Shown here in pieces: positions 1 to 3,022 of a stretch of 64,000 nucleotides of DNA (positions are counted from its first letter, which is position 1; each line of letters starts with the position of its first letter). The notes below the pieces were generated by a model. That model was not told the origin of the DNA. It searched no databases and worked only from the letters and a program-made list of their open reading frames with translations. The stretch spans positions 1-64,000 of the forward strand of contig MPMZ01000007.1 in the NCBI GenBank assembly GCA_002238765.1. Direction: 5' to 3'. The position numbers and the translations under genes are program-made. This stretch comes from Nitrospira sp. bin75 (GTDB lineage: Bacteria > Nitrospirota > Nitrospiria > Nitrospirales > UBA8639).

Positions 1-38
1 AGGTAGCGGACGAGAACGTTGGTATCGAGTGCGATCAC
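1..38 (-). CDS. PIN-domain toxin, VapC-like (5' end only)
   Basis: Only the first dozen codons are inside the window. On the minus strand they read as a GTG-started MIALDTNVLVRYL, which is the classic PIN-domain opening with the first catalytic Asp in a DTN motif. The GTG overlaps the TGA of the upstream AbrB-type gene as GTGA, the usual coupling of antitoxin and toxin. From the family, it would be a Mg-dependent RNase toxin. The rest of the gene lies beyond position 1. Confidence 0.7.
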   Translation of the reverse strand, partial: MIALDTNVLVRY

Positions 39-295
39 CCCTCACACGCCCCGTCGGCTATGGCCTGCTCCATGTCCTCCAAGGTGACGACCGAATCCTG
101 CTGCAGCAAGCCGAATAGACGGCTGATCGGACGTACGGGCAAAATCCGCACCTCTCCTTCGAAAATCACGTAGCGCACCCGGTCTCCGACCTGCACCCCA
201 AGCACTTCCCGCACAGGCTTAGGCAGCGTCGTCTGTCCTTTTTTGGTAATCGCTGACTCGATCATGGCGAAACCTTTATTTACCTTACTTTCCAT
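35..295 (-). CDS. AbrB/MazE-type antitoxin (VapB-like)
   Basis: An 86-residue protein. The core around residues 11-50 (ITKKGQTTLPKPVREVLGV, then GDRV) is the swapped-hairpin AbrB/SpoVT fold that binds DNA and neutralises a partner toxin. A second in-frame Met at residue 11 (position 265) is an alternative start. The next gene on the same strand begins a PIN-domain toxin and overlaps by GTGA, so this is a type II toxin-antitoxin operon. Autorepression is expected from the family. The C-terminal 35 residues probably contact the toxin. Confidence 0.85.
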   Translation of the reverse strand: MESKVNKGFAMIESAITKKGQTTLPKPVREVLGVQVGDRVRYVIFEGEVRILPVRPISRLFGLLQQDSVVTLEDMEQAIADGACEG

Positions 296-480
296 TAGCT
301 TGCCTTACAAAATTGAATTCGTCAAGGATTATTGGGGTTGAAACGTTGACTCCCCAAGCCTATACTTTTTATCAGAGAGGGAAGCAAATGGGGTTACCGC
401 TGAAACAGCGACCTTGTTTCCGGGCAAATGCGGCTACATGATGTGTTGCCCTTCGAGTGGTAAGATACGCTCGAAGGGCA
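296..480 (+). promoter_or_regulatory. Structured leader with promoter, aptamer-like hairpin, antiterminator and terminator
   Basis: A sigma-70-like promoter (TTGAAA, 17-base spacer, TATACT at about 361-366) would start RNA near 373. The RNA can form an 8-bp stem 380-387/414-421 enclosing hairpin 398-402/406-410 with an AAA loop. A strong 11-bp hairpin, 447-457/470-480, is followed by CTTTTGTTTT, as in a rho-independent terminator. An alternative stem pairs GGGCAA at 422-427 with TTGCCC at 446-451 and would break the terminator's 5' arm. This mutually exclusive pairing is the layout of a riboswitch or attenuator. I compared it from memory with c-di-GMP, cobalamin and TPP classes and could not assign it. 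The downstream gene is the secreted protein starting at 519. Confidence 0.5.
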
Positions 481-518
481 CTTTTGTTTTCACCGCACTG
501 TCCGAAAGGAGAACGGCC

Positions 519-977
519 ATGATACAAGCACTAGCCATCTCGATCATCTTCTTCTCGATGTTCGTGACCGTCCCGCCGGTTGACGCGACCTGCATGACCA
601 CGAAAGTCGGGGAAACGTCGTTCACCAATTGTACCGATGGGCGTTCCGGTTTCAGTGTGCAGTCGGGCAAGAACAGTATTCACAATTTCAATGATGGAAG
701 CACCAGCGTGACGAACTCGTTTGGTAATACCAGCGTTTCCAGCAGCAATCAGCCGGGTCTGGGTGGAACCAGCCTATCCATCAACAAGGATATGGGAGTT
801 TCCCAATGGAACGACGGCACGACCGGCGTCCACCAGAATTTCGGCAACGTGCGCGTGGACAGTTATAACGACGGCACCATCTGCACCACCGCACCGGTTG
901 GCACGACGAGTGTCACGACCTGCAATGGGGATTCGAAAGACGCGGCGAAGCGCAGCACGATTATCGGCACGAAGTAA
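519..977 (+). CDS. Secreted repeat-rich protein of unknown function
   Basis: A 152-residue protein. The chosen ATG has an AAAGGAG ribosome site about 10 bases upstream. The first ~22 residues form a signal peptide ending near VDA. The mature part is Ser/Thr/Asn/Gly-rich and carries irregular repeats built on NDG-T-S/G-V and FGN-V motifs (around residues 47-66 and 85-110), with Cys residues near both ends. This suggests a small exported beta-rich, possibly beta-solenoid or curli-like, protein. I do not recognise a named family. It is preceded by a terminator/antiterminator leader, so its expression is probably conditional. Confidence 0.65.
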   Translation: MIQALAISIIFFSMFVTVPPVDATCMTTKVGETSFTNCTDGRSGFSVQSGKNSIHNFNDGSTSVTNSFGNTSVSSSNQPGLGGTSLSINKDMGVSQWNDGTTGVHQNFGNVRVDSYNDGTICTTAPVGTTSVTTCNGDSKDAAKRSTIIGTK

Positions 978-1083
978 CGATCCTCAGACGAACAAACCGG
1001 CTGGAGAGATTGTGAACCAAACCGGGGTTCACGGTGCGCGCCTATGCCCCTGCCTTTACTCCTAAATCCTCTGCTCCAGATGC

Positions 1084-1266
1084 GTGACCTTCTCGGAACA
1101 GGCAGGCTCCCCGCACGTTCTTAAGTCACCCCTCTTCCCCGACAAGACGACTGCCGTTTACTGCAACGTAAAGGAAAATAAAACAGTGTGTAAATTCATC
1201 GTCGACGGACTGGGACCCCTGTTGACAGCGGAAGAATCTCACCGCTTATCTATCCTGGGAGACTGA
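1084..1266 (+). CDS. Possible small hypothetical protein
   Basis: A 60-residue open frame with a GTG start, lying between the secreted repeat protein and the DUF2490 gene and ending 13 bases before the latter's start codon. It has two Cys residues and no recognisable domain. No clear ribosome site is visible. It could be a short leader gene of the next operon, or chance. Apart from it, the 978-1279 gap shows nothing recognisable. Confidence 0.25.
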   Translation: MTFSEQAGSPHVLKSPLFPDKTTAVYCNVKENKTVCKFIVDGLGPLLTAEESHRLSILGD

Positions 1267-1279
1267 AAAAGGCGTCCTC

Positions 1280-2014
1280 ATGGCTGAGAAAATTCATCGC
1301 AACGTGGTCCGGCGTTTTTCGTTTGTTCATCTGCTTGGGGGAGTCCTGTTGCTGCTCGTCGTGAGCGGAACGGGAACGGAAGTTGCCCGGGCCAGCACCT
1401 TACATGACGGGCAGGTCTGGGTCCCGTTGTACAACCGGTTTTCTCCCTCGGACAAGGTGCGGGGGTGGTTCGAGGTGAACCCGAGGTTCGGGAACGACAT
1501 GTCGGAGATTCACCAACTGCTCATCCGCCCGGCCCTCGGCTATCAGATTATGCCGGGCGTTTCGCTTTGGCAGGGATATGCGTGGATCACGAATTACGAG
1601 CCACGGTTTACCGATGAACATCGCCTGTATCAACAGTTGAGCTATCGAAAGAAATTCGACGGGTGGAACATCTTCAGCCGAACTCGAACGGAACAACGGT
1701 TCATTCGCGATGCGCGAGGCGTCTCATTGCGGGCGCGCGAATTCCTGCGAATGAACGTTCCCTTGGACGACCGCAAGCAATGGTCCTTCGTGTTGTATGA
1801 TGAACTCTTTGTGTCGCTCAATGCCACCAGGAACGGTCCCCGGGCGGGATTTGATCAAAACCGGCTCTTCATCGGACTCAACCGGAAGGTGAACCGCTAC
1901 GTAAGCATGGACATCGGCTATCAGAATCAAAGCATCAACACGCCAGGGCCGCGCGCGGTCGATGTGATGAATCACATTCTCCTGATTCAGTGGTTTATCG
2001 ATTGGACGGACTGA
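1280..2014 (+). CDS. DUF2490-family outer-membrane beta-barrel protein
   Basis: A 244-residue protein. An N-terminal hydrophobic segment (about residues 14-38) acts as a signal sequence. The rest is alternating aromatic and charged strands typical of a small barrel: GWFEVNPRF, YQQLSYRKKF, WNIFSRTRTEQRF, WSFVLYDELF, and a terminal aromatic strand. Strand content and length (about 200 mature residues) match the DUF2490 family of outer-membrane proteins, whose role is unknown. It stands alone, between the small exported protein and tRNA-Gln. Confidence 0.75.
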   Translation: MAEKIHRNVVRRFSFVHLLGGVLLLLVVSGTGTEVARASTLHDGQVWVPLYNRFSPSDKVRGWFEVNPRFGNDMSEIHQLLIRPALGYQIMPGVSLWQGYAWITNYEPRFTDEHRLYQQLSYRKKFDGWNIFSRTRTEQRFIRDARGVSLRAREFLRMNVPLDDRKQWSFVLYDELFVSLNATRNGPRAGFDQNRLFIGLNRKVNRYVSMDIGYQNQSINTPGPRAVDVMNHILLIQWFIDWTD

Positions 2015-2088
2015 CCAACACGGCGACGGGGATCTGCGCGACGCGGGAAAGGTCGTTGGATCTGAGTAGCGAATTCCGGACGGTAAAA

Positions 2089-2162
2089 TGGCTGGGGGAC
2101 CAGGAATCGAACCTGGGTTCACAGATCCAAAATCTGTTGTCTTGCCCCTAGACGATCCCCCA
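2089..2162 (-). tRNA. tRNA-Gln (anticodon TTG)
   Basis: On the minus strand a full cloverleaf can be drawn. The 7-bp acceptor stem TGGGGGA/TCCCCCA is followed by a discriminator G and an encoded CCA. The T arm contains GGTTCGATTCC, and the anticodon loop has TTG flanked by T and G. The anticodon gives glutamine. The BrnTA pair lies upstream of its 5' end and the DUF2490 gene beyond its 3' end. Confidence 0.95.
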
Positions 2163-2292
2163 GCCTGGGAATTTCACCTTACCCACCCATCTTGATGCAG
2201 TCAAGGCCGTTGACGGGGCATTCCCCCGCTACAACATATGTCGATTCAATTCTCGGATTTCTTGTCACCAATGAAGAAGTGGCAGGAGTATC

Positions 2293-2643
2293 TTATTTGA
2301 TCTCGGTGGACCCGAAAATGGCTTGGCGTAGCATGTCGTTCAAGCGTGTCTGCCAGCCCGGCCCCTCCTTGCGCAAGTGCGCCGTGATGTCGGCATCAAG
2401 CCGAATGGTTATCTGCTCCTTTGTCGGGGCTTTCTGCTTACCCCGCGTTCGGCGATACGCTTCAACGATGTGCGGGACAATTTCACCAGCAGGCCGCGCT
2501 CGCTTGAACCACTCCTCGTCCAACTCGAACGTGTCGGGGTCAGCGGCGATTCCTGCATTGATTGCAACCTCTTCGCCGTCTTTGGCGGCAATCTCATCGA
2601 ACGTCATCTTGGTGACATCACTGTCGTTCGTGTTTTTGGCCAT
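2293..2643 (-). CDS. brnA: BrnA-type antitoxin
   Basis: A 116-residue protein. The C-terminal half (KEQITIRLDADITAHLRKEG, then GWQTRLNDMLRQ) is the ribbon-helix-helix fold of the BrnA antitoxin family. The start is the ATG at 2643, just after the end of the BrnT-like toxin frame, giving a 26-base overlap. Family knowledge says BrnA binds BrnT and represses the operon promoter. The longer upstream frame is shadow sequence inside the toxin gene. Confidence 0.88.
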   Translation of the reverse strand: MAKNTNDSDVTKMTFDEIAAKDGEEVAINAGIAADPDTFELDEEWFKRARPAGEIVPHIVEAYRRTRGKQKAPTKEQITIRLDADITAHLRKEGPGWQTRLNDMLRQAIFGSTEIK

Positions 2644-2977
2644 AGCGTGTCTCCTCTCGCTGATTGGCCTTGCACAGGCTGATGAGTCGGATGTTGTCGC
2701 CGCGTTCCGTGAACACAACGACATACAACCTGACACCGATGAAGCCGTAAGCGACCCATCTCGGCTCGCTAGTGCGGTCATCCGGATTGATGATGGCGGT
2801 ATCCCACCCCAAGGCTTCCATCACGGTGAAATCCACACCATGCCTGGCGATGTTGGATTTTCGCTTGGCTTCATCCCATTCGTAAAGCGTTGTTATTGCC
2901 TCTTTATTGTAACTACTATTTGAGAAAAGTTCAACTTTTTTGTAGTTACAAATAATCAGAGGCAAATCCAGCGACAA
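2618..2977 (-). CDS. brnT: BrnT-type ribonuclease toxin
   Basis: The core YEWDEAKRKSNIARHGVDF, followed by a strand ending RLYVVVFTERGDNIRLISL, is diagnostic of BrnT, a RelE-like ribonuclease that inhibits translation. The homologous part begins about 32 residues after the first ATG (2977). In between the frame crosses a long palindrome that looks like an operator, so the true start may be a non-ATG codon near 2880-2900. The gene overlaps brnA and the two form a type II toxin-antitoxin operon. Confidence 0.85.
   Translation of the reverse strand: MSLDLPLIICNYKKVELFSNSSYNKEAITTLYEWDEAKRKSNIARHGVDFTVMEALGWDTAIINPDDRTSEPRWVAYGFIGVRLYVVVFTERGDNIRLISLCKANQREETRYGQKHERQ
2907..2951 (-). promoter_or_regulatory. 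Nested palindromic operator of brnTA
   Basis: Ten-base arms TTGTAACTAC (2907-2916) and GTAGTTACAA (2942-2951) are perfect inverted repeats. They flank an inner palindrome, AAAAGTT-C-AACTTTT. The position at the 5' end of brnT suggests the autoregulatory operator bound by the BrnA ribbon-helix-helix domain. This is inference from position and symmetry. Confidence 0.5.
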
Positions 2978-3022
2978 GCAGGAACAACTTGGTCCTCTTA
3001 TTTGAATCGAATGTGGGGGCCG

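Follow-up and report, generated by a model that had tools for sequence, protein, structure and literature searches.

A candidate transcription attenuator, possibly under leader-ORF control, ahead of a probable secreted repeat protein gene in one Nitrospirales genus

The window, the first 64,000 nucleotides of one contig in a draft genome of 3.04 Mb, carries what appears from its sequence to be a genuine candidate for a genus-restricted transcription attenuator, placed ahead of a small repeat protein gene. The best explanation that we can offer, tentatively and at somewhat under an even chance, is an attenuator in which a leader ORF of 17 codons (uORF) exerts control by being translated, so that the position of the ribosome and not the sequence of the peptide would decide read-through. 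The earlier note on this DNA had described a riboswitch-like attenuator leader and had overlooked the uORF with its Shine-Dalgarno (SD) sequence (377-441). The attenuator itself is supported by the anatomy of the leader and by the conserved order of promoter, terminator and gene; the riboswitch is not, as described below. The features are listed in Table 1.

Table 1. Features of the leader and of the gene that follows it, in window positions.
Feature	Position	Strand	Description
Promoter	338..366	+	sigma-70-like TTGAAA-17-TATACT; -35 at 338-343, -10 at 361-366
uORF Shine-Dalgarno	377..380	+	GAGG, 7 nt upstream of the uORF ATG
Aptamer proposed in the earlier note	380..421	+	outer helix 380-387/414-421, middle helix 392-394/411-413, inner hairpin 398-402/406-410
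uORF	388..441	+	17 codons, MGLPLKQRPCFRANAAT-stop; TGA at 439-441
Possible antiterminator	422..451	+	GGGCAA (422-427) with TTGCCC (446-451), -9.1 kcal/mol
ATGA island	438..441	+	uORF stop overlapping an ATG; invariant in 8/8 leaders
Intrinsic terminator	447..490	+	13-bp stem 447-459/468-480, U-rich tail 482-490
Secreted-protein gene	519..977	+	152 aa; putative signal peptide, then beta-rich repeats; SD AAGGAG about 507-512

The promoter and the strong terminator named in the earlier note were both confirmed. The promoter matches the consensus at 10 of 12 positions and is the sole such site on the + strand of positions 1-3000, and we infer a transcription start near 371-375. The terminator hairpin (447-480) has a folding energy of -25.5 kcal/mol and is followed by CTTTTGTTTT; among the relatives its pairs show one compensatory change (G-C to A-U in G005) and several G-U changes. 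Because the 28 nt that separate the terminator tail from the ATG of the gene are too short for a second promoter, the gene is read from this promoter, or from a more distant one, through the terminator. A terminator located between promoter and gene has a transcription attenuator as its natural reading. The order of promoter, terminator and gene is conserved across the related genomes of the genus, so that the arrangement by which an intrinsic-terminator attenuator is recognised, a conserved terminator between the two, was found. The conservation profile peaks at the -35, the -10, the SD, the ATG, the ATGA stop island, the terminator stem and the U-tract, and the DNA between these peaks is variable. 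Among 8 leaders, the mean pairwise identity is 96% for the two promoter hexamers, whereas it is 53% for the 17-nt spacer.

The leader is confined to one genus. Of 14 genomes in the genus, 9 carry the leader by DNA search and 10 carry the gene or its remnants by a search with the protein family, which returned a single weak protein relative (G015) from outside the genus. Six loci are intact (G000, G002, G004, G005, G007 and G010). The leader is intact in G012 with the gene mostly deleted, and in G008 the leader is damaged and the gene lost. A deletion fuses leader to gene in G011, the leader is lost from G009, and G013 has a pseudogene. The loss of the gene in several genomes indicates that the secreted protein is dispensable. 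An exact-pattern scan over about 85,000 species returned 8 loci, all in Nitrospirales or Nitrospira MAGs and in the same genomes as the relatives already found. When homologous leaders were sought outside the genus with a covariance model built from 8 leaders, as the earlier note had proposed, only similar GCCCTTCG-type terminators were returned (best E 0.0014), with the rest of the leader absent. Candidatus Nitrosymbion, of the sponge-associated Nitrospirales, equals the GTDB genus bin75 (PMC11812461), and the leader-bearing genus is probably this one, that is, nitrite-oxidising Nitrospirales related to sponge symbionts. Identity to the relatives changes along the locus. Over 1-380 the window shares 98% identity with G012, but only 73-77% from 422 on, from where it resembles G002 and G007 (92-100% over 422-460). 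Recombination between relatives within the leader, with 1-421 and 422-530 of the window differing in origin, is the likely reading of these identities.

The description of the product as a secreted repeat protein held up, in that the gene encodes a small repeat protein that is probably secreted, with repeats such as NDGxTSxTNSFGNTSV. The AlphaFold2 model of the 152-aa protein is beta-rich with a mean pLDDT of 79, low in the first 20 residues, and its best fold match in the PDB is a de novo designed protein. The protein has no Pfam hit and no NCBIfam family above cut-off. The weak relative in G015 (L028 1500-1900, - strand) consists of near-perfect repeats, DGTSGTSNxIGGTTFHNF, and is flanked by repeated elements that resemble integron cassette sites (attC-like). 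In the window, a MazE/PrlF-like antitoxin gene (35-295, - strand) is divergent from the leader. In G012 this antitoxin gene is followed by a PIN-type toxin-like ORF with a purM-like gene beyond, and in several relatives a purM-like gene directly adjoins the leader. On the other side, a DUF2490 protein gene (1280-2014) separates the secreted-protein gene from a tRNA gene (2092-2162, - strand). A BrnA antitoxin gene (2293-2643, - strand; Pfam E 2e-22) beside a BrnT-like ORF (2618-2977, - strand) forms a second toxin-antitoxin pair within 3 kb.

The uORF carries the conservation expected of a leader-ORF attenuator, namely an SD and a short ORF before the terminator with start and stop conserved. 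Its ATG, open frame, length and TGA are kept in 7/7 undamaged leaders, and so is the GAGG, which is replaced by GAAG only in G008, where the gene is lost. When the same changes were placed at random, start, frame and stop were preserved in all seven leaders in 2.2% of trials; this is not a strict probability, as the seven are closely related and partly recombined. An SD, an ATG and an ORF arise together in 2.7-4.6% of shuffled leaders, depending on how the SD is defined. The flanks of the invariant ATGA island are less conserved, positions 428-437 being 71% identical and 442-445 being 43% identical. In G008 the -10, the SD, the uORF ATG and the terminator pairs are all altered, and this coincidence of gene loss with joint damage of the leader parts counts for control by the uORF. 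Conservation of the SD and the ATG could be partly due to the helix that overlaps them. Selection on the peptide was not seen among the seven leaders (pN/pS of 0.84 against a null median of 0.85), and the lack of an excess of synonymous change in the uORF codons counts against the uORF. There is no run of one control codon in MGLPLKQRPCFRANAAT or its homologues, an absence that disfavours amino-acid attenuation of the trp type.

How the uORF might act can be laid out from these positions. With RNA polymerase starting near 371-375, the SD and the ATG would stand almost at the 5' end of the RNA. By default, the hairpin would terminate transcription at about 488 and yield an RNA of about 115 nt. 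The uORF stop lies 5 nt upstream of the terminator stem, and a ribosome at this stop would cover about 421-451, which includes the TTGCCC at the base of the 5' arm of the terminator. A ribosome still there when the polymerase crosses the U-tract would block the lower five terminator pairs, and the secreted-protein gene would be transcribed; if the uORF were untranslated or the ribosome had departed, termination would follow. Translation of the uORF, the dependence of read-through on where the ribosome stands, and the sign, with a ribosome at the stop meaning on, are all inferred. The sign could also be the reverse, should the 422-451 hairpin have a kinetic role. The footprint was taken from standard values, with the TGA in the A site, the P-site codon from 436 and the front edge about 16 nt downstream, at 451-452. 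A front edge of about 16 nt was measured by toeprint in the vmlR study (PMC9226507). With this assumed footprint and equilibrium folding, masking 421-451 removed the antiterminator together with the lower five terminator pairs, while a mask on the start codon, on codon 6 or on codon 11 left the terminator complete. Among the modelled positions, therefore, only the uORF stop removed the terminator base, and read-through with a ribosome at or near the stop is the most likely mechanism for this reason. A ribosome position that excludes the terminator, a further mark of leader-ORF attenuators, was thus found in computation with the assumed footprint.

The earlier note had called the leader riboswitch-like. 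On this model, region 380-421 would be an aptamer of an unknown riboswitch class that binds a metabolite, stacks on the 422-451 hairpin and stabilises antitermination. The structure can be formed as drawn: almost all of the 8-bp helix with its inner hairpin appears in the minimum-energy fold of the leader in the window, and this well-defined fold speaks for the model. The RNA of 372-488 folds better than its shuffles (z -4.1), but 372-455, which is without the complete terminator, is unremarkable (z -1.6; 14 of 200 shuffles equally good), so that most of the folding signal of 372-488 is that of the terminator. The region also overlaps the final base of the uORF SD, and the uORF ATG lies within it. 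Its helices are largely conserved in relatives. The arms are near-invariant, and pairing in the middle helix survives four one-sided G-C to G-U changes, which is again in favour of the model; the same helix has one U-A to U-G change and one break. In the 8-leader alignment, five pairs of the outer helix are invariant and the other three depart by mismatches only, one pair being broken each in G005 and G010. In the inner hairpin, G010 is mismatched at three pairs, and three other genomes lose the closing pair. Folded singly, G010 swaps the aptamer for another hairpin and G005 shifts it, with both genes intact, whereas the binding pocket of a riboswitch is usually its best-kept part. Absence of covariation in homologues had been named in the earlier note as what would speak against its model, and in the aptamer pairs there are 0 two-sided changes, the pair-preserving ones being one-sided G-U changes only; the sample is 8 close relatives, with limited power. 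Covariation measures in the aptamer were within the shuffled range for the same 8 leaders. Whole-alignment RNAalifold (202 columns, promoter included) gave long-range pairs that need RNA from before the start or join the leader to the gene start, and these are not believed. The Rfam scan that had been called for, run with 4227 families on 296-600 at E up to 10, gave two chance matches to eukaryotic RNAs only, and at the gathering threshold no match at all. Most known riboswitch classes are found beyond one genus, unlike this leader, and no metabolic function of the downstream gene points to a ligand. Taken with the broken and replaced helices, these results leave the metabolite-binding model improbable.

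The antiterminator of the same model is present and mutually exclusive with the terminator, but a 6-bp Watson-Crick match to the 5' arm of the terminator occurs in 22% of shuffled leaders (85% if G-U is allowed) and is thus within chance. The GGGCAA/TTGCCC pairing is kept in 7/7 undamaged leaders, twice via G-U. In folding of the nascent RNA it forms when the 3' end is at 452-476 and is gone once 480 is transcribed. Being much weaker than the terminator (-9.1 vs -25.5 kcal/mol), it would not keep the terminator off at equilibrium in this model. Both this large difference in stability and the chance level of the match are in favour of a fixed terminator, un- or weakly regulated, that sets low read-through, or has the short leader RNA as its main product, with the uORF incidental. 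A fixed terminator would also fit the lack of peptide-level selection, and the intact leader that G012 retains beside a mostly deleted gene counts for it and against the uORF. An SD, an ATG, an open frame and an ATGA island conserved beyond their surroundings, and the joint damage in G008, speak against it, and we judge it unlikely, if still a serious alternative. Another alternative is attenuation by an RNA-binding protein, which would read GGAAGC, AAACAGC or TTGTTTCCGG and so either shift the fold or block the uORF. This would fit blocks whose nucleotides, even at third codon positions, are better conserved than the structure built from them. However, the leader matched no recognition site that is known, a linked regulator gene is absent, and a genome search found a single leader of this type in the window's genome, which makes such a protein rather improbable. 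The leader could finally be coding, if the secreted protein began at ATG438 or earlier. Its frame is open through the terminator in 5 of the 6 intact loci, and pN/pS in that frame is below the null median without being significant (0.45, p 0.09; 0.64, p 0.16). G004, with its gene intact, has an in-frame TGA seven codons upstream of the gene ATG. The SD and signal peptide start at 519 and the conserved U-tract, which would fall within the gene, also speak against a coding leader, and we consider it very improbable. An N-terminal extension of the gene through the leader was rejected on the in-frame stop of G004 and the non-significant codon signal, and that stop suggests that the frame (390-518), open in most relatives, is due to chance.

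Control by the uORF has relatives among known systems. In the pyrBI-type attenuators of Escherichia coli, a ribosome close behind the polymerase prevents the terminator hairpin from forming, and this is the likeness proposed for the leader here. The pyrBI leader ORF extends through the terminator and senses UTP via pausing, whereas the present uORF ends before the terminator. Terminator-type riboswitches (Rfam) share the alternative pairings ahead of an intrinsic terminator, but the leader matched 0 of 4227 families, its aptamer is without covariation and it occurs in one genus only. The vmlR leader of Bacillus subtilis has a promoter, SD, uORF, terminator and gene; initiation at its uORF is essential and the peptide variants tested mostly work (PMC9226507). 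The likeness is in the layout of ribosome-mediated transcription attenuation, with a uORF inside a hairpin, an alternative pairing, an intrinsic terminator and then the gene (PMC9226507). vmlR differs in having a uORF of 3 codons, pause sites, an antibiotic as its signal and an anti-antiterminator that overlaps the antiterminator (PMC9226507). The leader here has a 17-codon uORF ending 5 nt before the terminator, a hairpin and antiterminator that are adjacent and non-overlapping, and a gene that is not a resistance gene. In speFL and mdtU of enterobacteria, translation of a leader ORF likewise decides premature termination (PMC7815308), and on speFL the ribosome stalls immediately ahead of the stop codon of the uORF (cited in PMC7815308). 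Rho takes part in those systems, and MdtU is a peptide with conservation across genera (PMC7815308), in contrast to the intrinsic terminator and the non-conserved peptide here.

If control by the uORF is right, the candidate moves from an unknown riboswitch to a leader-ORF attenuator, and the footprint of start and stop codons can separate both classes where structure is without covariation. The wider importance is limited for now. The fullest form of the proposal, which we hold to be somewhat unlikely as a whole, is that a sequence-indifferent uORF stop would park the ribosome exactly on the terminator base and so make output of a genus-specific, secreted beta-repeat protein depend on translational state in uncultured sponge-symbiont Nitrospirales. 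Control by the uORF, if right, would also offer a case in which the coupling of attenuation to translation can be tested in an uncultured lineage, its target being a secreted protein that may be in contact with an animal host.
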